Shown here: one piece after another, positions 2,481-16,341 of the stretch
How positions within the stretch are numbered: position 1 is the stretch's first letter
Layout of the letters: every line of letters begins with the position of its first letter
Assembly (NCBI GenBank): GCA_003141555.1
Contig: PLMN01000026.1
Coordinates: 1-32,176 of the forward strand
DNA: 32,176 bases
Direction: 5' to 3'
Source of the DNA: Candidatus Aminicenantota bacterium
GTDB taxonomy: Bacteria > Acidobacteriota > Aminicenantia > Aminicenantales > UBA4085
Made by a program: the position numbers and the translations under genes
Notes under the pieces: model-generated
Databases searched by the model: none
What the model saw: the letters and a program-made list of their open reading frames with translations, nothing else
What the model was told of the DNA's origin: nothing

Positions 2481-2556
2481 TCCCCGGTAGCTCAATAGGC
2501 AGAGCGGTTGGCTGTTAACCAATAGGTTGGCGGTTCGAGTCCGTCCCGGGGAGCCA
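2481..2556 (+). tRNA. tRNA-Asn (anticodon GTT)
   Basis: The full cloverleaf can be drawn: acceptor TCCCCGG/CCGGGGA (2481-2487 with 2546-2552), D stem GCTC/GAGC, anticodon stem GTTGG/CCAAT around loop CTGTTAA with GTT at 2514-2516, five-nt variable loop AGGTT, and T stem GGCGG/CCGTC with loop TTCGAGT. The discriminator is G2553 and the CCA tail (2554-2556) is encoded. Its last 12 nt, plus two more bases, form the left att-like repeat of the adjacent island, so the tRNA stays intact after the insertion. Confidence 0.97.
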
Positions 2557-2709: not shown

Positions 2710-5556
2710 ATGACGACTCCGTTCCACAGCAAGTATTGGGCGAATGAACTGACGCTCCGGGCGGCAGCTGGGAGCATCGAGTCGTTATCCCGTTCCATTG
2801 CGGGCGCTCGGGTAGACCTCAATCCCCACCAAGTGGATGCCGCCCTCTTTGCGCTCCGGTCGCCGCTGGCGCGTGGGGTCATTCTGGCCGATGAAGTTGG
2901 TCTAGGAAAAACCATCGAGGCGGGCATCGTCATCGCCCAGCGATGGGCCGAGCGGAGACGACGTATTCTTCTCATCGTGCCCGCGATGCTGCGCAAACAA
3001 TGGCAACAGGAACTCGAATCCAAGTTCTACCTGCCTACGATAGTCCTCGACTCGAAGGTTTTTAACGCGCTTGTGAGCGGCGGAAATGCCAATCCCTTCG
3101 ATCTCACGGATAGGCTGATCGTTTGTTCCTACCACTTTGCATCGGCGAAAGCGCAAACGATCAATCATCTGCCTTGGGACTTGGTCGTTATCGATGAGGC
3201 TCACCGTCTTCGGAATGTCTATCGGAAGTCCAGCAAGCTCGCCCGCAATATCGTGGACGCAATTTCTCAATTCCCAAAGATTCTCGTCACGGCCACGCCG
3301 CTGCAAAATACGCTCATGGAGCTCTTCGGTTTAGCCAGCGTTATTGACGACCATCTCTTCGGGGATGCTGCCTCGTTCCGCGATCAGTTCGTGCGAGCAA
3401 CTGATGAGCGACAACGCAACGCCGAACTGAGGGAGCGGCTGCATTCGATCTGCATTCGAACGCTCCGCAAACAGGTTGTCGAATACATCCCCTTCACGCG
3501 GCGCGTTCCCGTGACGCAGGATTTTTGTCCAGGCGATGAGGAGCAAGCGCTCTACGAGAGCGTCTCTACCTATCTTCAGCGCGACGGACTGATCGCTCTG
3601 CCTGCCAGTCAACGCACCCTCATTACCTTGGTGCTTCGCAAACTCCTGGCGTCATCCACATTCGCCATTGCAAATACGCTGGACCGTTTGGTCAAGCGGC
3701 TTGAAGGCATCTCATCCAGCCAAGAGCTTCTCTTGAATGACGAAGACGTTGAAGGTGTTGACGAACTTCAGGACGAAATGGAGGAGCAGGAAGAGGATGT
3801 CGAAGGGAAGCTTCCGCAAGAAGATACCCCCATCGATCCGGAAAAACTGAAGGCGGAACTGGCCGAGTTGCGCGGATTTGTCGAAACGGCTCGCGGGATT
3901 TCCGTCAACGCCAAGGGAGAAGCGCTCATCCCAGCCCTCAAAGTCGCCTTCGAGCGTGCCGAGCGGCTTGGGGCGGAACGGAAGGCCGTCATCTTCACCG
4001 AATCGCGGCGCACCCAGCAATATCTCTTCGATCTGCTTTCCGCGCAGGGGTATAAGGACCAACTGGTGATGATCAACGGGTCGAACAACGACCCGCATTC
4101 AGGGAGCATATATCGCCAATGGCGCGATCGTCACGCCGGGCAGGAAGTGATATCCGGCTCCAAGCCTGTGGACATCAAGGCGGCTATTGTCGAGCAATTT
4201 CGCGACCACGCGAACATCCTTATCGCCACCGAGGCTGCCGCCGAGGGTGTGAATCTTCAGTTCTGTTCTTTAGTAGTGAACTACGATCTGCCATGGAACC
4301 CCCAGCGCATAGAGCAACGGATCGGCCGTTGTCACCGCTACGGTCAGAAGCATGATGTGGTGGTCGTCAACTTCCTGAACCGCCGCAACGAGGCCGATCA
4401 GCGAGTCCTGGAACTCCTGAGCGAGAAGTTCAAGCTCTTCGACGGAGTCTTTGGTGCGAGTGACGAGGTCTTGGGCGCGCTCGAATCCGGTGTGGACATT
4501 GAGCGGCGCATCGCCCAAGTTTACCAAACCTGCCGGAACGTCGAAGAGATCAAGGCTGCGTTCGATAAACTTCAGGCCGAACTGGAAGAACAGATTCAGT
4601 CCCGCATGGCTCAGACCCGCGAGGTGCTGCTCGAAAACTTCGACGAAGACGTGAGCGCCCGCTTGCGAGTCAACCGGGACAAGACGATGGAGACTCTCTC
4701 GAACCGCGAACGGAGTCTTCTGGAACTGACGCGCATAGAGTCGAACGGCGAGGCTCGATTCGAGGCCGAACGGCCGCGTTTCCTCTATTCCGGTACGCGC
4801 GCCCGGCAAGGCTGGTATCACTTCGATTGGAAGGAAGCCGAGAAGACCGGCGACACCTTCTATCGGCAAGACCATCCACTTGCCGTTCAGCTCATCGAGC
4901 AGGCTCTGAACCGCGAGCTGCCCCCGGCTACGCTTGCGCTGGATTATGCCGCCCATCGCCAAGTGATCAGCGTCCTCAAACCACTGGTTGGCTCTATGGG
5001 CTGGTTTGAACTTTCGAAGCTCACGGTTGACTCTCTCGACACGGAGGAATTTCTCGTTTTCGCAGCGCAAACAGACTCGGGACATACGCTCGACGAGGAC
5101 GAATGCCGGAAGTTGCTGCTTTTACCCGTTAAGATCGAGATACAACCGCCCGGCGCCTCGCCGGACCTTACGGCTATTCGCCATACCGAGATGCAGGGCA
5201 AGATTAAGCAGGTGGAGGATCGGAACGGGAAGTTTTTCGACGAGGAGGTCGTGAAGCTCGATCGCTGGTCCGATGACCTCAAGCAGGGGCTGGAGCGGGA
5301 GATCAAGGAACTCGACAAACAGATCCGGGAGGCCCGCCGGACAACGGCGTTGGCCGCATCCCTGCACGACAAACTGGAGGCCCAGAAGTCCATCAAGGCA
5401 TTGGAGAGCGCCAGGAACCGCAAACGGCGGGAACTGTTCGATGCGCAGGACGCCATCGACTCCCAGCGCGACGAACTGATCGGACGCATCGAGAAGCAGC
5501 TTCAGCAACGTCATTCATCGAAGCCGGTGTTCATGTTCCGGTGGAGGTTGATATGA
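2710..5556 (+). CDS. SNF2/HepA-like DEAD/DEAH-box helicase, island gene 1
   Basis: Predicted 948-residue superfamily-2 ATPase of the SNF2/RapA type, expected to translocate on DNA or remodel protein-DNA complexes. The N-terminus MTTPFHSKYWANEL leads into NPHQVDAALFAL (Q-motif-like) and Walker A ADEVGLGKTIEAG (K67). The DEAH box is VVIDEAHRLRN (near 159-169), with motif III VTATPLQN. After an acidic, Glu-rich linker (about 335-380) comes the helicase C lobe with ATEAAAEGVNLQ and motif VI QRIGRCHRYGQ (near 536-546). The C-terminal third is helical and charged with coiled-coil-like stretches (about 850-930) and no domain I recognise. It opens the island operon, and its stop overlaps the next start by 4 nt. 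Helicases of this type occur in DISARM and other defence clusters, but drmA/B/C partners are absent here. Confidence 0.9.
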   Translation: MTTPFHSKYWANELTLRAAAGSIESLSRSIAGARVDLNPHQVDAALFALRSPLARGVILADEVGLGKTIEAGIVIAQRWAERRRRILLIVPAMLRKQWQQELESKFYLPTIVLDSKVFNALVSGGNANPFDLTDRLIVCSYHFASAKAQTINHLPWDLVVIDEAHRLRNVYRKSSKLARNIVDAISQFPKILVTATPLQNTLMELFGLASVIDDHLFGDAASFRDQFVRATDERQRNAELRERLHSICIRTLRKQVVEYIPFTRRVPVTQDFCPGDEEQALYESVSTYLQRDGLIALPASQRTLITLVLRKLLASSTFAIANTLDRLVKRLEGISSSQELLLNDEDVEGVDELQDEMEEQEEDVEGKLPQEDTPIDPEKLKAELAELRGFVETARGISVNAKGEALIPALKVAFERAERLGAERKAVIFTESRRTQQYLFDLLSAQGYKDQLVMINGSNNDPHSGSIYRQWRDRHAGQEVISGSKPVDIKAAIVEQFRDHANILIATEAAAEGVNLQFCSLVVNYDLPWNPQRIEQRIGRCHRYGQKHDVVVVNFLNRRNEADQRVLELLSEKFKLFDGVFGASDEVLGALESGVDIERRIAQVYQTCRNVEEIKAAFDKLQAELEEQIQSRMAQTREVLLENFDEDVSARLRVNRDKTMETLSNRERSLLELTRIESNGEARFEAERPRFLYSGTRARQGWYHFDWKEAEKTGDTFYRQDHPLAVQLIEQALNRELPPATLALDYAAHRQVISVLKPLVGSMGWFELSKLTVDSLDTEEFLVFAAQTDSGHTLDEDECRKLLLLPVKIEIQPPGASPDLTAIRHTEMQGKIKQVEDRNGKFFDEEVVKLDRWSDDLKQGLEREIKELDKQIREARRTTALAASLHDKLEAQKSIKALESARNRKRRELFDAQDAIDSQRDELIGRIEKQLQQRHSSKPVFMFRWRLI

Positions 5557-6734
5557 ACCGAGGCCTGATGATCAGCGCGAAGGAACTGTCCGCCCTATTG
5601 ACTCAGAGCGAAGGCGAGACCATCGAGTTCAAACGTTCAACGGGTGAGCTGAAAGAAGCCATGCGGACGCTCTGCGCCTTCCGCTGGGAAAATCTTCCCG
5701 CCGAAGGACTGGCGCTGAAAGATCTGGATCGCAAGGAAATCCTGCGGACGCGCGAGCTGGCCATTCAGCAAAACCGGATTTCGCCGGATACGAGCCGTGA
5801 TATCGGCGAAATTCTTGACCGATTGGGGCTGCGGATTGACGGTGTTCTCACGCAGGCCGCGCTGATGCTTTATGGGAAGCGATTCCTCCCCGACTATCCG
5901 CAATGCCTTCTGAAACTGGGACGATTCCGGGGCACGGAGATTACCGGCGAGATCGTAGATAACCGGCAGGAGCACATGAACGCCTTCGCTATGGTCCGCG
6001 AGGGGATGGAGTTCCTGAAGCGCACGATGCCGTTGGGCGCTCGATTCCCGGCGGGCGAGGTATTCCGGGAGGACCGTTTCCCGGTTCCTTTGGATGCTCT
6101 CCGGGAAATCCTTCTCAATGCTGTGATGCACCGCGACTACTCCCACTACTCCGGCCATGTCGCCATTGTGGTCTTTGATGACCGGATCGAGATCCGGAGC
6201 TATGGACGCCTTCCCAACGGCGTGACGGTGAAACAGCTTTCAGGAAAACATATCTCGAAGCCGACCAACCCGCTGATCGCCGGAGCCTTCCACCGCACCG
6301 GCGCGGTCGAGGTTTGGGGCCGTGGCACCAACCGCGTCATCGAGATGTGCAAAAAGCATGGCGCGGCCCCACCAACATTCGAGGAGATGCAGGGATTTCT
6401 GATCGTTACGTTCAAGGCGCAGTTGGTCGCCGGTGGCGCGGCGGGGACTTCAGAGGTCCAGTCGGGGGACCAAGTCGGGACCAAGTCGGGACTAAGTCAG
6501 GACCAAGTGGAAGTCCTGCGGCTTTGCCGTCAAGAACAGACATTGGTTACGATGATGAATGTCGTCGGAAGGCAAAACCGTACCAAATTCCGAGGCGGCC
6601 TCGTAAAGTCGCTGATCGAAGCGGGGCTGCTGGAATTGACCATCCCGGACAAGCCGCGCAGCAGCAAGCAGAAGTACCGGCTGACCGAGAAGGGCCGGAA
6701 GGTTTTGCGCAAGCAGACGGGGGGCGGGAAATGA
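5553..6734 (+). CDS. GHKL-type ATPase with truncated AlbA_2 domain and C-terminal winged helix, island gene 2
   Basis: Predicted 393 residues. Start ATG at 5553 sits 5 nt after GGAGG and overlaps the previous stop (ATGA); the in-frame GTG at 5541 would lack a site. The N-terminus carries the AlbA_2 opening GETIEFKRSTGELKEAMRTL (residues 21-40). Then, after residue 43, the sequence jumps to RWENLPAEGLALKDLDR, which in homologues I know follows about 100 residues later. The AlbA_2 core therefore appears deleted in frame. A GHKL ATPase region follows (LREILLNAVMHRDYSHY near 184-198; VEVWGRGTNRVIEMC near 250-264). A linker encoded by 11-bp tandem repeats precedes a C-terminal winged helix ending near KYRLTEKGRKVL. 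Such proteins often accompany restriction systems; their biochemical role is not established. It may be a regulator or an ATP-dependent partner of the nucleases. Confidence 0.8.
   Translation: MNRGLMISAKELSALLTQSEGETIEFKRSTGELKEAMRTLCAFRWENLPAEGLALKDLDRKEILRTRELAIQQNRISPDTSRDIGEILDRLGLRIDGVLTQAALMLYGKRFLPDYPQCLLKLGRFRGTEITGEIVDNRQEHMNAFAMVREGMEFLKRTMPLGARFPAGEVFREDRFPVPLDALREILLNAVMHRDYSHYSGHVAIVVFDDRIEIRSYGRLPNGVTVKQLSGKHISKPTNPLIAGAFHRTGAVEVWGRGTNRVIEMCKKHGAAPPTFEEMQGFLIVTFKAQLVAGGAAGTSEVQSGDQVGTKSGLSQDQVEVLRLCRQEQTLVTMMNVVGRQNRTKFRGGLVKSLIEAGLLELTIPDKPRSSKQKYRLTEKGRKVLRKQTGGGK
6466..6509 (+). repeat. 11-bp tandem repeat (four copies) inside island gene 2
   Basis: GGGACCAAGTC occurs at 6466, 6477, 6488 (one change) and 6499 (end bases changed). 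Since 11 is not a multiple of three, copies are read in different frames and encode the linker DQVGTKSGLSQDQV. Gain or loss of a copy would shift the frame and remove the winged-helix domain. Confidence 0.85.
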
Positions 6735-8863
6735 AAATAACACATCTGCACATTGAGAACTACAAGGGGCTTCGCGAGATCGATATCCCGCTCTCGCGGT
6801 TTGCGTGCCTCATTGGCGAAAACAACGCGGGAAAATCATCTGTCCTGCAAGCTGTCTCTCTTTTCTTCTCTGGGTCCGCGCTACAAAAAATGCACTACTT
6901 CGATGCTGACAACCCGATCCGTATCGAAATGTCCTTCAATGAGATCGCCGATGGCGACCTCGACCGATTGGCTGAGGAGCACCGGACAAAGATAAAGGGC
7001 ATTATCAAGAATGGCGCGCTAACGTTGGTGAGGCTATACGGAGCAGAGGGTAAGAGCGCTCTAAAATATCGCAAACTACTTCCAAGAGAGGAGCGATTCT
7101 CTGACAACAAGATCGCCGAGTTGGTCAAGGGACAAAAGGCAAGCAAGGCATTCGCTGACGCAGTCACGGCAGTGTTCCCCGAACTCAATGGCATCGTAAC
7201 GGCCGCGATGAACCAGAACGATACTAAGGCCAAGATTCAGGAGTTGGCCGACAGCCTCCCGGATAATCAGAAATCACCCGCTGACGCCGACCTTCCCACG
7301 GGCATCGACAAGAGCATTTCGGCGTTACTCCCGGAGCCGATATACATTCCGGCAGTCAAGGATTTGAAAGACGATGTAAAGACAAGCGAGGGTACGCCTT
7401 TCGGAAAGGTGCTCGGCATTCTGCTAAAAGCCATTGAGCCGCATCTTGCCGAAGAGAAAACTCTCTTCGAGCAACTCAATAAAAAATTGAATCGTGTTAC
7501 CCAGGCCGACGGCACCGAGACGGACGAGCGGCTAGTACCAGTCAAGACCATCGAGGAAACGGTTGAACGCTTCGTTCAGGACAGTTTCAAGACCGTCAAG
7601 TTGCGGATCACCATTCCTCCGCCCGAATTGAAGACGGTTCTTTCGTCCGCCCTGATTTATGCCAATGACGGTGTTGACGGCCTGATCGACTCGAAAGGCG
7701 ATGGGCTTCGCCGCGCCATCGTCTTTGCCGTTCTTCGATCCTACGTCGAACTCAGCAAGACGGGATTGATTCCCGGGGAAGGCACGCAAACGCCGACTGA
7801 CCCTCGTCATCTGCTTCTCTTTGAAGAACCGGAACTGTACCTCCATCCCAAAGCGCAGCAGGTTCTGTTCGAAGCTCTGGGCACGTTTTCTCAAAAACAC
7901 CCGGTGATTGTAACCACGCACTCGCCTACTTTCTTCGGTCCGCAGTCCACCACGACCTTCATCAAGATGCACAAGAGGACGGACACCTCTGTTGCACGTA
8001 AGCCTTTTGGTGTCGCCCATCCGGTTGATCTGGGTGACACAAGCGCGAGAGATCAATTCCAGATAATTTGCTACGAAAACAACCACATTGCCTTTTTTGC
8101 GGAAACGGTGGTACTGGTTGAAGGCGACAGTGACTACATCGTCCTGCCGCATCTGGCGCGCATCATCAATCCTGCGTGGGACTCCGGCCAATTGCCTGTT
8201 CGCTTTGCCCGCATCGGGGGCAAAGGCAATATTCGACGGTACACACAGTTCTTCCGCCGGTTTCAAACACGCGTTTTAGTAGTGACTGATTTGGATTTTC
8301 TATTGGGAACCGAATTCGGACAGATCGATCCCGCTGATGATCTTAAAACCCAACGCGACGAACTGCTGGTGGCGGTCGATAAGGTCATTGACGCCAACGG
8401 CGGCACGCTGGAGCCGAACGCGGAACAAGTTAAGGATACCCACGAACGAGGCGATTTGCGTGCGTTGTGGAAAAAGGCTCGTGAGTTGCAGGCAAATTAC
8501 AAGATAGGCCACGCGTCCTTGGAGGATGTGACCAAAGCGGTTGATGAGTTTTTCGCATGGGAAAAATATTGGGGGCGGCGAGACACGCTTCGCCAATGCA
8601 ATGGTACTCTGTTATCGCAGAAACGAGCGCTCCTTGCCGGTCTCCGAGGACATGGGGTCTGCGTGTTGGAGAAAGGCACTATTGAAGACTACTACCCCGC
8701 CGACATAACCGGCGAAAGCAAGCCCGCCAAAGCACAGTGTTTCTGCAATTTCGTGACCTCCAAAGAGCAAGCACTGGCGTTGTGCGCCACGGGGCACAAG
8801 GGACCGAGGGGCGCGGACACCTCGGAATTTGAAGCAATCTTTGAAACAGTGTTCGGAACTTGA
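6731..8863 (+). CDS. OLD-family ATPase with TOPRIM nuclease domain, island gene 3
   Basis: Predicted 710-residue protein of the OLD (overcoming lysogenization defect) type: an ABC/SMC-like ATPase fused to a metal-dependent TOPRIM nuclease. It starts MKITHLHIENYKGL, with Walker A GENNAGKSS (K35). Walker B LLLFEEPELYLHP lies near 358-370, with the H-loop VIVTTHSPTFFG. The TOPRIM part shows VVLVEGDSDYIVLP (near 461) and the second acidic motif VVTDLDFLLG (near 516). The ATG at 6731 overlaps the preceding stop by 4 nt; in-frame sequence upstream of it merely shadows the previous gene. OLD proteins with a UvrD partner form Gabija; no UvrD-type gene is present here, the only helicase being the SNF2 gene two genes upstream. 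The likely role is DNA cleavage or nicking under ATP control in anti-phage defence. Confidence 0.9.
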   Translation: MKITHLHIENYKGLREIDIPLSRFACLIGENNAGKSSVLQAVSLFFSGSALQKMHYFDADNPIRIEMSFNEIADGDLDRLAEEHRTKIKGIIKNGALTLVRLYGAEGKSALKYRKLLPREERFSDNKIAELVKGQKASKAFADAVTAVFPELNGIVTAAMNQNDTKAKIQELADSLPDNQKSPADADLPTGIDKSISALLPEPIYIPAVKDLKDDVKTSEGTPFGKVLGILLKAIEPHLAEEKTLFEQLNKKLNRVTQADGTETDERLVPVKTIEETVERFVQDSFKTVKLRITIPPPELKTVLSSALIYANDGVDGLIDSKGDGLRRAIVFAVLRSYVELSKTGLIPGEGTQTPTDPRHLLLFEEPELYLHPKAQQVLFEALGTFSQKHPVIVTTHSPTFFGPQSTTTFIKMHKRTDTSVARKPFGVAHPVDLGDTSARDQFQIICYENNHIAFFAETVVLVEGDSDYIVLPHLARIINPAWDSGQLPVRFARIGGKGNIRRYTQFFRRFQTRVLVVTDLDFLLGTEFGQIDPADDLKTQRDELLVAVDKVIDANGGTLEPNAEQVKDTHERGDLRALWKKARELQANYKIGHASLEDVTKAVDEFFAWEKYWGRRDTLRQCNGTLLSQKRALLAGLRGHGVCVLEKGTIEDYYPADITGESKPAKAQCFCNFVTSKEQALALCATGHKGPRGADTSEFEAIFETVFGT

Positions 8864-8872
8864 GGAATAGGT

Positions 8873-10582
8873 ATGGCCAATAACAAGACAAAACTCGAAC
8901 TCACCTGGATAGGCAAGGAGAACCGGCCGAAACTGGAGCCGCGCATCCTCATTGAGGACCCGGCCAAGTCCCACCACGCGCCGTTTCGCACTGGAAAAGA
9001 CGACGTTTTCGATAACCGACTTATCTTCGGCGACAACCTACTCGCCCTTAAGGCGCTGGAGCAGGAGTTCGCGGGCAAAATCAATTGCATCTACATCGAC
9101 CCCCCATACAACACGGGATCGGCTTTTGAGCACTATGACGATGGAATTGAACACTCGCTTTGGTTATCGCTCATGCGCGATCGGCTGGAGATTCTACGAC
9201 AATTGCTGGCAAAGGATGGCTCGATTTGGATCAACATCGACGACATCGAGGGGCACTATCTCAAGGTCTTATGCGATGAGGTATTTGGCCGTCCGAATTT
9301 CGTCGCGAATATCGTGTGGCAGAAACGTACCTCTCGCGAGAATAGAGCTGCGGTCGGCTCTTCACATGACGACATTCTTGTCTATGCCATGTGTAGTCCA
9401 CAGGCGTGGAAAGCTGTTCGGAACAAGCTGCCGGCAAACGACTCCGGTTATGGGAATCCAGATAACGATCCTCGCGGAAAATGGCGGTCGATTCCATTCA
9501 GTGCACAGGGGTATCGGCTCAACCAGATGTACGACATCATCACGCCGACGGGCGTGGTCTTGCAGCCGCCGAAGGGCAGATGCTGGGGTGCGACAGAGCC
9601 GGTGTTTAGGCAATACCGCGCTGAGAACCGTGTCTACTTTCCCAAGGGTGGCGATGGTCGTCCCCGGATCAAGCAATTCGCAGGAGAGGAAGAAGGGCTA
9701 ACACCGATGACCTGGTGGGAAGCGTCGGAGTCTGGTGACAATGAGGAAGCCAAGAAGGAGATTCTAGAACTATTCCCGGATCAGGAGCCGTTCTCGACGC
9801 CAAAGCCGGAGCGTCTGATTCATCGGATAATGACCATCGCTACCGCCCCTGGCGACCTCGTCCTCGACTCCTTTGCCGGTTCCGGTACGACCGGCGCGGT
9901 GGCGCACAAGATGGGCCGCCGCTGGATCATGGTCGAACTCGGTGAGCATTGCCACACACACATCATCCCCCGGTTGAAGAAAGTGATTGATGGCGAAGAC
10001 AAGGGCGGCGTTTCGAAAGCCATGGACTGGAAAGGCGGAGGAGGGTTCCGCTATTATCGACTCGCGCCATCGCTCCTTCAAAAGGACGAGTTCGGCAACT
10101 GGGTCATCAGCAAGGAATACAACCCGGCCATGCTGGCCGAGGCGATGTGCAAGTTGGAGGGCTTTACCTACGCTCCCAGCGAAACGGTCTACTGGCAGCA
10201 CGGGCACTCCACCGAGACTGACTTTATCTACGTAACCACACAGACCTTAACCCGTGAGCAATTGCTGAAACTCCTCGATGAGGTCGGCGAAAGCCGTTCG
10301 CTCCTCGTCATGTGTGGCGCGTTTCGCGTTAAGAACCTCGACGAGTTCCCCAACCTGACGGTGAAGAAGATTCCGAAGGCGGTTCTCAACCGGTGCGAAT
10401 GGGGCAAGGACGATTACAGTTTAGAGATCCAGAACCTGCCGGTACGGGAGGAACCGCTGATTGGGCAGGTGGCGGTGGAAGCGGAGAGGGGGAGGAGGGG
10501 TAGGACGAAGGCGGAGCGGCGGGCGGAGGCGGCCGAACAGCCATCGCTTTTTGACCTTCCGGCGCAGGAGAAGAAACCGTGA
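8873..10582 (+). CDS. mod: Type III restriction-modification DNA methyltransferase (Mod), island gene 4
   Basis: Predicted 569-residue N6-adenine/N4-cytosine DNA methyltransferase. Motif IV is DPPYNTG (D76) and the AdoMet motif LDSFAGSGTTGAVAHKMGRR follows near residues 330-350. That motif order (IV before I) marks the beta class used by type III Mod subunits. The recognition region would be the roughly 130-320 segment between them. RLIFGDNLLALKAL before the catalytic motif is typical of Mod. The C-terminal 150 residues end in a low-complexity basic run (about 540-560). It lies 9 nt after the OLD gene, the only island junction without overlap, with GAGGAATAGG as ribosome-binding site. It should protect host DNA and supply target recognition to the Res subunit two genes downstream. 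Target sequence cannot be read from the protein. Confidence 0.93.
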   Translation: MANNKTKLELTWIGKENRPKLEPRILIEDPAKSHHAPFRTGKDDVFDNRLIFGDNLLALKALEQEFAGKINCIYIDPPYNTGSAFEHYDDGIEHSLWLSLMRDRLEILRQLLAKDGSIWINIDDIEGHYLKVLCDEVFGRPNFVANIVWQKRTSRENRAAVGSSHDDILVYAMCSPQAWKAVRNKLPANDSGYGNPDNDPRGKWRSIPFSAQGYRLNQMYDIITPTGVVLQPPKGRCWGATEPVFRQYRAENRVYFPKGGDGRPRIKQFAGEEEGLTPMTWWEASESGDNEEAKKEILELFPDQEPFSTPKPERLIHRIMTIATAPGDLVLDSFAGSGTTGAVAHKMGRRWIMVELGEHCHTHIIPRLKKVIDGEDKGGVSKAMDWKGGGGFRYYRLAPSLLQKDEFGNWVISKEYNPAMLAEAMCKLEGFTYAPSETVYWQHGHSTETDFIYVTTQTLTREQLLKLLDEVGESRSLLVMCGAFRVKNLDEFPNLTVKKIPKAVLNRCEWGKDDYSLEIQNLPVREEPLIGQVAVEAERGRRGRTKAERRAEAAEQPSLFDLPAQEKKP

Positions 10583-11769
10583 AACGAAAAAAAGGCATAT
10601 CGAGACCGTCGTTGCCGATGTATGAACGCATTCGGCAGATACTGGATTTCGCCAAAAGCACCGTGGCCCGTTCGGTAAATACGACGCAGGTGGTCGCAAA
10701 CTGGTTGATCGGACGCGAGATCGTGGAAGAGGAGCAGAAAGGCCGAGCGAGGGCCGAATACGGCAAGCGGCTGATCGAGAACCTATCAAAGCGTTTGGTG
10801 AAGGACTTTGGCCGTGGGTTCGCCGTCCGCAATCTGGAAACATTCAGAGCGTTCTATCTGGGATATCCCGAACTCGTAATTCCGCACGCACTGCGTGCGG
10901 AATTGGCAGATCATCGATCGGCAGTGATTCGCCCCGCAGTGCGCAGCGAATTGAAAGATACGGTTTTACTCCCCGTGCCGGTGATTCCGCACGCAGTGAG
11001 TACGAAATCCTGGAAGCCGGGCGTGCTTCATCCGAACTTGTCTTGGACGCATTATCGGGTTCTCCTTCGCGTGGACAAAGCGGCAGCCCGAGCCTTCTAC
11101 GAGATCGAGGCGATCAAAAACAACTGGGCCGCGCGGGAGCTGGAACGGCAGATCAACAGCCTTCTCTACGAACGTCTGGCCATGAGCCGGGACAAGAAGG
11201 GGCTGATGCGCCTTGCGGTCAAGGGCCATGAGGTGCAGAAGCCCACCGATGTGTTCAAAGACCCGGTGGTTATGGAGTTTCTCGGCCTACCGGAATCGCC
11301 GAGACTGGTAGAGACCGACCTGGAGCAGGCACTGATCAACAACCTACAAATCTTCCTGCTGGAGCTGGGCAAGGGCTTCGCCTTCGTAGCCCGGCAGGAG
11401 CGGCTGACCTTGGATGGAGATCATTTCTACATTGATCTGGTGTTCTATCACACCATCCTGAAGTGCTATGTGATCATTGACCTTAAAACCGGCAAGTTAT
11501 CGCATCAAGACCTTGGGCAACTCCAGTTATACGTGAACTACTACGACCGAGAACGTCGGACGGAAGGCGATGGTCCGACGCTCGGGTTGATCCTCTGTGC
11601 GGACAAGAACGATGCCGTGGTGCGGTACACGTTGGGCGCGGATCAGCGAAAGACCATCTTTGCCAGTCGCTACAAGCTCCATCTTCCCAGCGAGGCTGAA
11701 CTCCGGGCCGAACTGCGGCGCGAAGTGAGAGCGCTGTCCGCCCCGACGAATATGGGAGGCGCGAAATGA
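10579..11769 (+). CDS. DUF1016 (YhcG-type) PD-(D/E)XK nuclease, island gene 5
   Basis: Predicted 396 residues, starting at GTG 10579 (GTGA overlap with mod; AGGAG 8 nt upstream). The N-terminal DUF1016 helical domain has ILDFAKSTVARSVN, VANWLIGREIVEEEQ and YGKRLIENLSKRL, ending FRAFYLGYPEL. The C-terminal nuclease domain shows FYIDLVFYH (D286), VIIDLKTGKL (D301, K303) and the helix LGQLQLYVNYYDRE, a complete PD-(D/E)XK core. Between the two domains, about 45-50 residues (roughly 100-148) carry three related repeats not expected in the family; normally the YPEL stretch runs nearly straight into the LSWTHY motif. YhcG-like proteins recur in restriction and defence loci; their exact target is unsettled. 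It probably acts as an accessory nuclease of this system. Confidence 0.9.
   Translation: MKRKKGISRPSLPMYERIRQILDFAKSTVARSVNTTQVVANWLIGREIVEEEQKGRARAEYGKRLIENLSKRLVKDFGRGFAVRNLETFRAFYLGYPELVIPHALRAELADHRSAVIRPAVRSELKDTVLLPVPVIPHAVSTKSWKPGVLHPNLSWTHYRVLLRVDKAAARAFYEIEAIKNNWAARELERQINSLLYERLAMSRDKKGLMRLAVKGHEVQKPTDVFKDPVVMEFLGLPESPRLVETDLEQALINNLQIFLLELGKGFAFVARQERLTLDGDHFYIDLVFYHTILKCYVIIDLKTGKLSHQDLGQLQLYVNYYDRERRTEGDGPTLGLILCADKNDAVVRYTLGADQRKTIFASRYKLHLPSEAELRAELRREVRALSAPTNMGGAK
10878..11008 (+). repeat. Three in-frame palindromic repeat units within the DUF1016 gene
   Basis: Unit 1 (10878-10904) is a perfect palindrome: AATTCCGCACGCA, C, TGCGTGCGGAATT. Unit 2 (10927-10951) has the same length with 10 of 12 arm pairs intact. 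Unit 3 (10984-11008) is more decayed. Cores start at 10879, 10927 and 10984, so spacings are 48 and 57 bp, both multiples of three. They are translated as VIPHALRAEL, VIRPAVRSEL and VIPHAVSTKS in the linker between the two protein domains. Confidence 0.85.
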
Positions 11770-14477
11770 ACCCGCACATTAATACCATCGCCAACCGACT
11801 CAGTCTCCGGCCGCCCCAGCGCGACTCACTGGAGATTCTTGCGCGGGTTTGCGACATCGTGCCGCTGGAGAAGAACACCGACGTGGCCCAGGCGCTTAAG
11901 ACCATTCAGGCCGAGTATGCCACGGTTACCGACTTCGAGCGCGACTTTCCGTCGCTCTGCTTCGCCCTGGCGACCGGCGTGGGCAAGACGAGGCTCATGG
12001 GCGCGTTCATCGCCTACCTTTTCAAGGCCGAGGGCATTCGGCACTTCTTCGTCCTCGCGCCAAACCTGACCATCTACAACAAGCTCATCGCGGACTTCAC
12101 ACCCAACACGCCGAAGTACGTCTTTCAGGGCATTGCCGACTTCGCGGTCGAGCCGCCGGAGATCATCACCGGAGACAACTACGATAGCGGGCGGGGGGTT
12201 CGGACCAGGACGCTCTTTGGCACAGATGAAAGGGTGCACGTCAATATCTTCAACATCTCGAAGATCACGAGCACGGAGACGCCCAAAGGGGCTGAGAAGA
12301 CCAATATCCCGCGATTCCGTCGGCTCCAGGAATACATCGGACAAAGCTACTTTGAATATCTTTCGAAGCTCGACGACCTCGTGCTTCTCATGGATGAATC
12401 GCACCGCTACCGGGCCTCGGCGGGCATGAAGGCCATCGGCGAGTTGAAGCCCATTCTCGGCCTTGAACTCACCGCCACGCCGCATGTGGAGCGCGCAGGA
12501 GGTACGCAGGCGTTCCAGAACGTCATCTATGCCTACCCGCTATCGAGCGCCATGACCGACGGGTTCGTCAAGGAACCCGCCGTGGCGACTCGCGAAAATT
12601 TCAATCTGAAGAACTATGACGCGGCGGGACTGGAGCGGCTGAAGCTGGAAGACGGCGTCCGCATCCACGAAAACACCAAGGTCGAGCTGGAGGTATACGC
12701 CCGCGAGAACGGCAAGCCCATCGTTAAGCCCTTCATGCTGGTCATCGCTCGCGATACCGACCATGCCGACGTCCTCATGAAAGCCATTAAAGAAGAAGCG
12801 TTCTTCGCGGGCCGATACAAAGGCAAGGTCATTCAGGTTCACTCGAAACAAACGGGCGAGGAACGGGACGAGACCGTCGAGCAACTCATCAACGTGGAGA
12901 AGTCGGACAACCCGACGGAAATCGTCATCCACGTGAACATGCTCAAGGAGGGTTGGGACGTTACCAATCTTTACACCATCGTTCCGCTCCGGGCAGCGAA
13001 CTCGCAGACGCTGGTGGAGCAGTCCATCGGCCGCGGACTGCGCTTGCCCTACGGCAAACGCACGGGCGTGGGAGCGGTGGACCGGCTGACCATCGTGTCG
13101 CATGATAAGTTCCAGGAGATTGTGGACTACGCCAACAGCGCCGACTCCATCATCCGGGGCGGACTGAAGGTCGTCTATATCAGCGATGAGCGTTCCAAGG
13201 TCGTGATCGCCGAGCCGGAGATCATGCAACGCATTCAGCCTCAGGCCGTTGCGGAGGGCGCTGGCGAGTACAAGATTGAGCGGCCCAAATTATTGTTCGA
13301 TAATCCTAAGGAACAAGAAGCGGCTAAAGCAACGCTGGAGGTCATCCGTCGGGAATTCGAGCGCCTGCCGCGTTCCGCCGACCTCGCCAAACCGGAAATC
13401 CAGAAGCAGATCGTCGAGAGGGTGAAAGAGATCATCACCCCGGCACAACAAGAACTGGGAGGCATCGCCGAGCAGGTGAACGTGGCCGAGGTCGTGGCCA
13501 AGACCATCATCCTGCGGAACGAGCTTTCGATTGATATCCCCCGCATTGCGGTCCAGCCCGTTGGCGACGTGACGCGAGGGTACCGGGAGTTCAATCTCAA
13601 TCTCGCCGGCGTCCGCCTCCAGCCGGTTGATAACGAGATTCTCATCCAGGAACTGCACCGACGGGAACAGCATCGGCTCATGAGCGGCACCGGTATCGTG
13701 CCGGAGGAGAAGCTCGCAGACTATCTCGTGCGCGGCCTCATTGATTTCAATGACATCTGCTACGACGACCACGCGGGTTTACTCTACAAATTGGCCGGGC
13801 AAGTCGTGGCCCATCTACGGTCCTACCTCAAGAACGAGGACGAGGTCCTTAACGTCCTTCAATACCACCAGCAGGCGTTGGTCAATCTGACCCATGCCCA
13901 GATGCAGGAACACTACGAGGAGAAGGCGGCGGCTTATGAAGCGCAGGTGAGCAAGGGTTTCAGGACGATGCGCCCCAACAACTACTCGGCTCCTGCCGGG
14001 GAAAACGAGCGAGACTTCCGCGCGCCTGTGTCCGACAAGCAGGACATCCGCAAGATGCTTTTTGCCGGATTCGGAAAGTGCCTCTACCGGGTCCAGAAGT
14101 TCGACTCGGACTCGGAGCGACGGTTCGCCATGGTTCTTGAGAACGACAAGGAAGTCCTGAAGTGGTTCAAACCGGCGCGGGGAGTGTTCCAAATCATATA
14201 TGGCAATCGTGACGGCGAGATGTACGAGCCGGACTTCGTGGTCGAGACGAAGACGGAGAAGTTTCTATGCGAACCGAAGGCTGCGCGCGAGATGAACGAC
14301 GCGGAAGTATTGGCCAAGGCTAAAGCTGCGGCGGAATGGTGCGTCCATGCCACCACGCACGAGAAGCAGCACGGTGGTAGTAAACCGTGGAAATACCTGC
14401 TTATTCCGCACGATGTGATTACGGACAATAAGTCGCTTCAGGGCCTGGCCGCGACTTACGCTTGGGTGAAAAAATGA
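11766..14477 (+). CDS. res: Type III restriction endonuclease, Res subunit, island gene 6
   Basis: Predicted 903-residue ATP-dependent helicase-nuclease. Walker A is [11 protein letters not shown] (K74), the DEAD/H-type box is [10 protein letters not shown] (near 209-217), motif III is LELTATPH, and motif VI is [13 protein letters not shown] (near 420). The C-terminal nuclease core is [10 protein letters not shown] (P822, D823) followed by CEPKA (E836, K838), a D-x12-ExK arrangement as in PD-(D/E)XK enzymes. Type III Res proteins work in complex with Mod, cleaving after ATP-dependent communication between inversely oriented sites. All motifs look intact. The start overlaps the DUF1016 stop (ATGA), and the stop overlaps the Fic start. 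Unusually, mod and res are separated by the DUF1016 gene rather than adjacent. Confidence 0.93.
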
Positions 14478-15523
14478 CGAAGAGCTTCAAACCCATCTTC
14501 ACGATCACTAACCGCATCACCGCCGGGCTGACCCGTATCGAACGGGCTCGGGGGTTCCTGGAAGCCGCGGCATTGTCCGAGGCCTGGATACGCGAGATGG
14601 GTCAGCGCGCTTTGATCCTGGAAGCCCACCACACAACGCACATCGAGGGAACGCGCCTTACGTTAGAACAAGCCCAGCGCTTACTTGGAGGAAACTCGGT
14701 TCCCGGGGCTGACCCCGACGACGTGCGGGAGCTGCTGAATTACCGGAAGGCCTTCGATTTCGTTTCGGATCATTTGGAAACAAGAGGGCCGATCACGGAG
14801 GGGCTGGTTCGGGAAATTCACAAGTGGCTCGTCAAGGGTGTTCGGGGCGGGACCGCGGCTCCGGGCGAGTACAGAAAGATCCAGAACTATGTAGTCAATT
14901 CGGTCACCGGCGAAACGGTCTACACGCCTCCTCCGGCGCACGATGTCCCGATTCTTATGGCGGAGTTAGTGGGCTGGCTCAACCAGGAACAGGGGGTCCA
15001 TCCAGTATTGGTGAGTGGCATCGCCCAATATCAACTCGTACATATCCATCCTTTCCTAGACGGCAACGGGAGAACGTCCCGGTTGCTTTCCACTCTTTAT
15101 CTTTACCGGGCCGGGTACGACTTCAAACGGCTGTTCACGATCAGCGAGTATTACGACCGGGATCGGATCGCGTTCTATCGGGCGATCCAGAGCGTTCGCG
15201 AACACGGATTGGACATGACCGGCTGGCTTGAGTACTTCGTCGAGGGGTTGACCACCCAACTTGCCGAGATCAGAGAGCGCGGGGAGCAGGCTATCCGCCG
15301 TGATGTGCTTATCAAGGGACAGCGACTTTCGGATCGGCAAGCTAAGGCCCTCGAATATATCCTAGAACACGGCAGTCTTACAATTCAGGAATTCGAGCGC
15401 CTATGTCCCAAAGACAACCGGCGGACCTTACAACGCGACCTCAAGATGATGGTGAACCGCGGCTTGGTGATCACCGAAGGTAAAACCCACCAACTATTTT
15501 ACCGATTGGCAAAGCCGAACTGA
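14474..15523 (+). CDS. Fic/DOC-family protein with winged-helix C-terminus, island gene 7
   Basis: Predicted 349 residues. ATG 14474 forms ATGA with the res stop; an in-frame TTG at 14462 is less likely. The catalytic Fic motif HPFLDGNGR (H192) is complete, preceded by [11 protein letters not shown]. The inhibitory helix motif (S/T)xxxE(G/N) is present N-terminal to it as TTHIEG (T54, E58, G59), which in the family blocks ATP binding and keeps AMPylation off. The N-terminus [15 protein letters not shown] resembles the Fic_N region. The C-terminus (about 285-349) looks like a winged helix ([28 protein letters not shown]), suggesting DNA binding. It could AMPylate a host or phage protein, or regulate the operon. 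It is the last island gene before the repeat cluster and attR. Confidence 0.9.
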
Positions 15524-15525
15524 TC

Positions 15526-15580
15526 TTTGCGACAGGTTTGCGACAATGTTTGCGACACGTTCGCGGCAGGCTTTGTGACA
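15526..15580 (+). repeat. Five phased 9-bp repeats beside attR
   Basis: TTTGCGACA is exact at 15526, 15537 and 15549. TTCGCGGCA (two changes) is at 15560 and TTTGTGACA (one change) at 15572. Spacing is 11, 12, 11, 12 bp, so all copies face nearly the same side of the helix. The array fills the non-coding gap between the Fic stop and the right att-like repeat, the position expected of recombinase arm sites or excisionase sites. I see no copies beside the left repeat. Confidence 0.8.
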
Positions 15581-15609
15581 TAACCCGTAGTGCTGAGAAT
15601 TGAGCTTAG

Positions 15610-15623
15610 CCCGGGGAGCCATT
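15610..15623 (+). repeat. attR-like 14-bp direct repeat
   Basis: CCCGGGGAGCCATT, identical to 2545-2558 in the tRNA-Asn 3' end. It ends one base before the stop codon of the minus-strand hydrolase gene at 15625, marking the island's right edge. Confidence 0.75.
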
Positions 15624-15624
15624 C

Positions 15625-16341
15625 TTACTTCATATCCCGGACTCTTACCTCGATCCCTTTTTCGTCCTTCATGAGCGCCACGAGCTTGGCCGTGTCCGAA
15701 TTCCCGAAGTGGTAGGGGTAGAAGATCTTCGGCCGGACGACCTTGGCCGCCGCGGCCGCCATCTCCACGGACATGGTGTAGGGCAGGTTCATGGGCAGGA
15801 AGGCCACGTCGATGTCCTTCAGGGCGGCGAGCTCCGGGATGTTCTCCGTGTCACCCGCGACATAGACCCGCTTGTCGGCGAACGTGAGCACGTAGCCGTT
15901 GCCCCGCCCCTTGGGATGGAAAACCGCGGTGAGGTTGTAGGCCGGGACGGCTTCGATCTTGATGCCCTGGAAAATCTTCGTCTCGCCATTCTTCATGACC
16001 ACGGCCGCGGGCAGCGCCGCCTTGCACGACTCCGAGGCGACAATCTCGGTTCCCGGCTTCGTGATCGCCGCGACCGCCTTGGGATCGAGGTGATCGCCGT
16101 GTTCATGGGTGATGAGGATCAGGTCGGCCTTGGGCAGCGCACTGTAGTCCGCGAACTGGCCTACCGGGTCGACATGGATGATCTTGCCGTCGAAGCCGAA
16201 CATCAGCGTCCCGTGGCGGATGCAGGTGATCTTCAAGTCGCCCTTGGACGTCTTTATGATGTCTTCTTGGAACGACCATCCCAGCGAAATCAGGGCCAAG
16301 GCGGCCGAGGCCAAAAGACCGAACTTAAAAATTGTCTTCAT
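15625..16341 (-). CDS. Secreted metallo-beta-lactamase-fold hydrolase (UPF0173/UlaG-like)
   Basis: Predicted 238 residues with an N-terminal signal peptide (MKTIFKFGLLASAALALISL) and probable export to the periplasm. The metal-binding motif is HEHGDHLDP, followed further on by VAGDTENIPEL, with AFLPMNLPYTM and PYHFGN near the C-terminus, as in the UlaG/UPF0173 branch of the MBL superfamily. No substrate can be assigned. The start has GGGAG 8 nt upstream. It lies 46 nt downstream of a cytosolic paralogue on the same strand, so the two probably form an operon born of duplication. Its stop codon abuts the island's attR repeat, so its terminator region may have been displaced by the insertion. 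Confidence 0.9.
   Translation of the reverse strand: MKTIFKFGLLASAALALISLGWSFQEDIIKTSKGDLKITCIRHGTLMFGFDGKIIHVDPVGQFADYSALPKADLILITHEHGDHLDPKAVAAITKPGTEIVASESCKAALPAAVVMKNGETKIFQGIKIEAVPAYNLTAVFHPKGRGNGYVLTFADKRVYVAGDTENIPELAALKDIDVAFLPMNLPYTMSVEMAAAAAKVVRPKIFYPYHFGNSDTAKLVALMKDEKGIEVRVRDMK

Follow-up and report, generated by a model that had tools for sequence, protein, structure and literature searches.

A row of nine-base-pair direct repeats behind a SoFic-like gene as the predicted DNA target of its own Fic protein

Background

The Fic-HTH protein CccR of Yersinia pseudotuberculosis represses its own promoter and binds the inverted repeat AGATAATCAT-N26-ATGATAATCT (PMC9755527), and CbFic2 of Coxiella burnetii binds DNA through its C-terminal helix-turn-helix (HTH) domain, which promotes its activity, having bound random DNA with nanomolar affinity (PMC10628234). 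With an inverted repeat as the site in one case and random DNA in the other, the Fic-HTH family is not known to bind direct repeats, which counts against the explanation preferred below. In the SoFic/Sofic anti-phage system (PDB 3eqx, 3zec; PMC12249575) the Fic protein is a dimer whose C-terminal domain controls activity, and which DNA is read by SoFic-like winged helices is stated as an open question in the CbFic2 paper (PMC10628234).

Rows of short direct repeats are bound by proteins of other kinds. RptR, from a type I restriction-modification island (PMC12255303), is a defence-island repressor whose target is a few 9-bp direct repeats in a row, and BldC (PMC5859096; described in PMC11963761) is a winged-helix-like regulator, copies of which align along 9-bp direct repeats spaced by about one turn of DNA.

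The locus described here lies in a stretch of 32,176 nucleotides (contig PLMN01000026.1 of a Candidatus Aminicenantota bacterium), the whole of which is referred to as the window. As in CccR, its Fic domain is followed by an HTH domain and a candidate HTH site adjoins the gene, but the site of CccR is an inverted repeat in a promoter, its halves separated by 26 bp, whereas the window has a row of direct repeats that begins 2 nt past the stop codon. CbFic2 (PDB 8cil) is among the closest solved folds to the modelled protein (TM 0.73 to chain B), but it was tested on random DNA, without a known specific site; SoFic is without demonstrated DNA binding, and that of the window protein is predicted. 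RptR differs in being a small repressor of its own, with a palindromic core and a site in the promoter, and BldC in being an unrelated protein that lacks an enzyme domain and whose repeats are not linked to its gene's 3' end. No prior description of arrays at fic genes, or of arrays inside genes of the AlbA/HATPase_c_4 type, was found in the open-access literature searched.

Results and discussion

A SoFic-like protein at the end of a defence island

A 13-kb defence island, with the array at its end, occupies the interval between a tRNA-Asn gene and a 14-bp copy of the 3' end of that tRNA (Table 1). The genes of this compact island (2710-15523) encode a DrmD-like SNF2 helicase, an AlbA/HATPase_c_4 protein with a Fic-like_C winged helix, an OLD-like ATPase, a type III methyltransferase, a YhcG nuclease (PDC-S02), a type III restriction helicase and the Fic protein, a toxin-like AMP-transferase whose gene overlaps the preceding one.

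The Pfam Fic domain is recognised in the product (E 2.5e-19), with an active-site motif, HPFLDGNGR (residues 196-204), that fits HPFx[D/E]GN[G/K]R, and a putative inhibitory motif, TTHIEG (residues 58-63), located N-terminal to the Fic core and matching [S/T]xxxE[G/N]; judged by these sequences, both motifs of a class II Fic protein are present. The PADLOC SoFic model covers nearly the entire protein (E 1.6e-65), and the score against the NCBIfam SoFic family NF046030 is 75.8 bits, under the 550-bit cut-off, so that by its profile score the protein is SoFic-like rather than a SoFic equivalog. An AlphaFold2 model (mean pLDDT 86) confidently predicts the C-terminal winged helix that is characteristic of SoFic, consisting of helices 291-303, 308-314 and 320-332 and strands 336-339 and 346-349, in a fold that matches SoFic and CbFic2; the closest solved folds include Desulfovibrio Fic (4rgl), CbFic2, 7xux and SoFic, and the winged helix by itself, as the query of a sequence search in the PDB, gave no useful match. 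E. coli Sofic is followed by the gene of a 47-residue antitoxin (PMC12249575). In a search of the window for a small AS1-like antitoxin gene downstream of fic, the open reading frames that start around 15480-15640 were all short (21-42 aa), none of them supported.

Table 1. Positions in the window of the fic gene, the two repeat arrays and the island ends
Feature	Position	Strand	Remarks
tRNA-Asn	2481..2556	+	3' end and two next bases (2545-2558) form putative attL
HATPase_c_4 and Fic-like_C winged-helix gene	5541..6734	+	Pfam PF13749, PF21247; carries in-gene array
Second array, four GGACCAAGT-like units, 11-bp steps	6467..6508	+	in linker ahead of winged helix
fic gene, SoFic-like protein	14462..15523	+	ATG at 14474 is the likelier start
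Fic C-terminal winged helix, aa 288-353	15323..15520	+	proposed array reader; AlphaFold2 model
Fic recognition helix, aa 320-332	15419..15457	+	AlphaFold2 model
Array unit 1	15526..15534	+	TTTGCGACA, exact
Array unit 2	15537..15545	+	TTTGCGACA, exact; 11 bp from unit 1
Array unit 3	15549..15557	+	TTTGCGACA, exact; 12 bp from unit 2
Array unit 4	15560..15568	+	TTCGCGGCA; TTCGCGACA in sibling genome G309
Array unit 5	15572..15580	+	TTTGTGACA; TTTGCGACA in sibling genome G309
Putative attR	15610..15623	+	CCCGGGGAGCCATT; 29 bp beyond array

The array behind the fic gene

The stop codon of fic (TGA, 15521-15523) is followed 2 nt downstream by the first of five units, of which three are free of mismatches to TTTGCGACA, one has one mismatch and one has two. 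A sequence-only reading of this DNA had described five such copies at 15526-15580 in steps of 11/12/11/12 bp, and the positions and steps were verified on the + strand. With a chain score that rewards likeness among 9-mers spaced 10-13 bp, the array scores 11, the highest of any such array in the window; the best chains of 12 simulated 32-kb windows (first-order Markov) scored 4-8, and 300 local simulations gave scores of at most 4, none equal to that of the array. The p-values calculated for single arrays derive from 200 shuffles and have a floor of 0.005. No further exact adjacent pair of TTTGCGACA was found elsewhere in the 3.8-Mb genome. The helical phasing that the same reading proposed has to be qualified as regards the period, which is that of a double repeat of 23 bp: adjacent steps in relatives with an array sum to 23 bp (11+12 or 10+13) in 42 of 51 cases.

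Arrays at related fic genes

When 84,980 genomes were scanned for pairs of exact TTTGCGACA units 2-3 bp apart, at least 116 stretches came to light. Among the matches listed, tBLASTn with the window Fic identified close relatives (65-83% identity) in L007, L010, L030, L046, L053, L085, L091, L098 and L102, all nine of them with the array downstream of fic and some with a broken or partial gene, and distant relatives (about 30%) in L079, L107, L109 and L048. The same motif is upstream of the fic start in the Patescibacteria-type loci L079, L107 and L109; in L079 and L107 a TATAAT box adjoins the array and the ATG comes immediately after it, which argues that the array is a DNA site. Repeats in a 3' untranslated region could instead be an RNA element that binds a protein or folds, and the 3'-end arrays are suitably placed for co-transcription with fic; however, the repeats of L079 and L107, being upstream of TATAAT and ATG, would be outside the transcript and read on the opposite strand relative to the gene, and the arrays of a second family (below) are inside coding sequence. 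The promoter-located arrays were taken as grounds to reject the RNA explanation, the chance of which is judged to be very small.

Most of the two-unit matches listed are without a link to Fic, some of them being near integrases, and some are within genes, probably by chance (about 15 expected collection-wide by our own estimate). In addition to the array behind its fic gene, L048 possesses a second TTTGCGACA array (5214-5246), which is 4 bp away from a sigma-70 gene. About 20 Bacteroides/Prevotella loci (L012, L050, L057, L059, L071 and about 15 others) share a conserved pair, TTTGCGACATATTTGCGACA, about 120 bp past a dnaK-like chaperone gene and ahead of an HTH_17 (excisionase-like) gene.

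An unbiased set of Fic genes was gathered by protein search alone, and the 90 bp past the stop codon and the 90 bp ahead of the start were scored. Where Fic identity was at least 52% and the 3' flank was readable, an array scoring at least 5 follows the stop codon in 16 of 22 genes; the remaining six are three gene fragments (L170, L218, L226) and three genes with shorter arrays (L204, L210, L216). At 25-40% identity, 15 of 23 full-length relatives carry an array on one side of the gene. Control Fic genes with a different C-terminal domain gave arrays in 2/98 cases past the stop and 0/99 ahead of the start, and neighbouring genes in 1/168 (a fic array read from the convergent gene) and 3/164 (one of them a fic array), respectively. 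Relative to the stop codon, arrays begin at -3 to +11 nt, with a single exception at 34, and in some relatives the stop codon is itself part of the array (TAGGACA; TGACA). Promoter-side arrays are found in L079, L107, L109, L152-L155 and L185, whereas that of the window is past the stop codon and not in the fic promoter, where an operator of the CccR type would be.

Relatives found by protein search mostly carry other motifs at the stop codon, namely GCTGTGACA, TTACTGTGACA, TATAGGACA and GGTTGGCGATTA; drifted examples are GCTGYGACA (L177), CTGTGACA (L178), TTACTGTGACA (L148), ATCGCGACA (L205) and TATAGGACA (L206 and L214). The combination of fic and array recurs in many gene neighbourhoods and phyla. 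A search of plasmids with Fic (E 1e-40) and two scans of viral contigs with distant Fic relatives as queries found no match.

In the sibling genome G309, of the same genus, fic has been deleted from about codon 9 to unit 3 of the array, leaving directly behind the first fic codons three units (TTTGCGACA, TTCGCGACA, TTTGCGACA; L342, about 762-820) that fit the consensus better than those of the window. The repeats of the window are therefore no isolated accident, and the absence from sibling islands that would have counted against the sequence-only reading was not observed. That reading had also allowed for the remnant of a degraded coding sequence, and the drift of units 4 and 5 in the window is what such a remnant, or a neutral tandem repeat, might display. 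Against this, the 11/12 spacing disrupts every reading frame, arrays with other motifs recur at the same place in relatives, and the sibling genome retains good units despite the deletion of fic; an origin as a coding remnant was rejected on the broken frame and the recurrence with a changed motif, and the chance that the array is either kind of relic is close to negligible.

Covariation of motif and recognition helix

The similarity of array motifs follows that of the recognition helices of the adjacent Fic proteins. Across 43 array-bearing genes, a set of related sequences from which a few low-complexity arrays were excluded by eye and in which permutation leaves some shared ancestry, the partial rank correlation of motif similarity with helix identity was 0.42 (permutation p 0.001) when catalytic identity was removed, and that with the catalytic domain was 0.09 when the helix was removed. 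A cleaner case is the pair L149 and L150, with catalytic parts that are 90% identical, helices that are 43% identical and motifs that differ (GGTTGGCGATTA and GGTTGTCATTTA, respectively). L149 and L223, with helices 93% identical, agree in motif; L079 and the window are only 29% identical in the catalytic part, are 60% identical in the helix and have identical motifs; and L149 and the window, with 41% identity in the catalytic part and none in the helix, differ in motif. This is the pattern that should be expected of a protein reading its own array.

Defence islands can contain separate repeat-binding repressors, such as RptR with its three 9-bp direct repeats (PMC12255303), and the array could likewise be the target of another regulator of the island, with Fic adjacent by chance. 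That the array accompanies Fic across many neighbourhoods and phyla and covaries with its helix makes such a coincidence highly improbable.

Relation to the putative att site

The sequence-only reading had placed the repeats next to attR. The 14-bp match that the two ends of the island have in common (2545-2558 and 15610-15623) makes the att assignment plausible; an empty att site was sought in the sibling genome and none was found. The reading went on to suggest recombinase arm sites or an excisionase array left from a mobile state, and the arm-type sites of a lost tyrosine integrase could indeed be expected this near to the putative attR (29 bp from the end of the array). Unrelated pairs or arrays of TTTGCGACA are present near tyrosine integrases in L009, L081 and L035, and long direct repeats border some units of fic and array (98 bp in L326, 41 bp in L312, 35 bp in L332 and 20 bp, exact, in L327). 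This explanation is contradicted by the start of the array, which keeps its place relative to the fic stop codon rather than the att site, by the motif, which tracks the Fic recognition helix, and by the distant relatives in which the array is in the fic promoter; it is already largely refuted by arrays with other sequences that occupy this position at Fic genes remote from att sites. Furthermore, a Pfam scan found no integrase among the genes of the island, and when two tyrosine integrases and a serine recombinase served as tBLASTn queries, none turned up in the window and one weak match across 31 enlarged contexts. The proposal of arm sites or an excisionase array is accordingly not borne out, and only a slim chance is left to it; the association of the array with attR is incidental. 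The flanking repeats indicate that the fic gene and its array may move as one unit, which would explain the location of the array near the end of the island.

The TTTGCGACA pairs and arrays by tyrosine integrases, of which that of L081 is at about 2929-2970, are possibly arm-type sites and are a separate class, unrelated to Fic.

A second array family

The second-best array in the window, with a chain score of 10, is inside the gene of the HATPase_c_4 protein, which we take to be AlbA, Pfam having assigned only HATPase_c_4 and Fic-like_C. Counting the gene in the window, 28 of 34 genes of this family score at least 6. Their arrays are mostly within the gene, 68-109 codons before the stop codon, with four at or just past it. 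A period of 11 bp crosses all reading frames, suggesting that selection acts on the DNA in these in-gene repeats. Members with a 12-bp period encode TGEVTGEV-like peptide repeats, and selection on the protein instead is possible for them. Both the 4-residue repeats (such as TGEVTGEVTGEV) and the in-gene repeats of 11 bp, located ahead of the winged helix, have the appearance of DNA arrays embedded in a coding sequence.

A possible mechanism

The array, its fixed position, its co-occurrence with winged-helix Fic genes and its covariation with the helix, which are established here, agree with the option, also raised in the sequence-only reading, of a cooperative site or operator for the Fic winged helix: arrays accompany winged-helix Fic genes regardless of any nearby att site, they begin no more than about 10 nt from the stop codon or else cover the fic promoter, and they vary in motif along with the recognition helix. 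On this comparative evidence, the array is very probably the target of the winged helix of the Fic protein itself, and nearly the same confidence attaches to the fuller explanation, in which the Fic protein whose gene is directly upstream has the array as its cognate DNA target.

One 9-bp unit would be read by the C-terminal winged helix of Fic, the 23-bp double repeat would hold two subunits, and several molecules would be aligned side by side along the array, presumably with cooperativity; the array would travel with fic, and its sequence would co-evolve with the recognition helix. In relatives with promoter arrays, these are most likely operators of an autorepressor, following the precedent of CccR. 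An array at the 3' end is not obviously able to regulate its own gene, and its placement in the clade of the window may perhaps be due to a lack of room for an operator of its own, fic often being tightly packed in an operon. The favoured view, at about even odds, is that such an array would keep Fic beside its gene and may limit expression from the 3' side by obstructing transcription there; negative autoregulation through the array in general is likewise about evenly balanced. By analogy with CbFic2, the activity of which is promoted by DNA binding, it is also possible that the 3'-end array switches the enzyme.

A different and rather unlikely reading is that the array controls the enzyme and not transcription, with Fic parked on the array in a state set by the DNA; equally unlikely is its sequel, in which loss or alteration of that DNA (by phage degradation or modification, or by loss of the island) would free or switch the AMP-transferase and the cell would stop. 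If this were true, the same logic might apply to the AlbA/HATPase_c_4 proteins, and both would be defence proteins whose own genes have a DNA tripwire inside or next to them.

Implications

With the array as the cognate target of Fic, the preferred explanation, a predicted DNA site becomes available for dozens of SoFic-like enzymes, and from it follows a table that relates recognition helix to motif and is testable with short oligonucleotides. It may also explain the odd 4-residue repeats and 11-bp in-gene repeats of the AlbA/HATPase_c_4 proteins.
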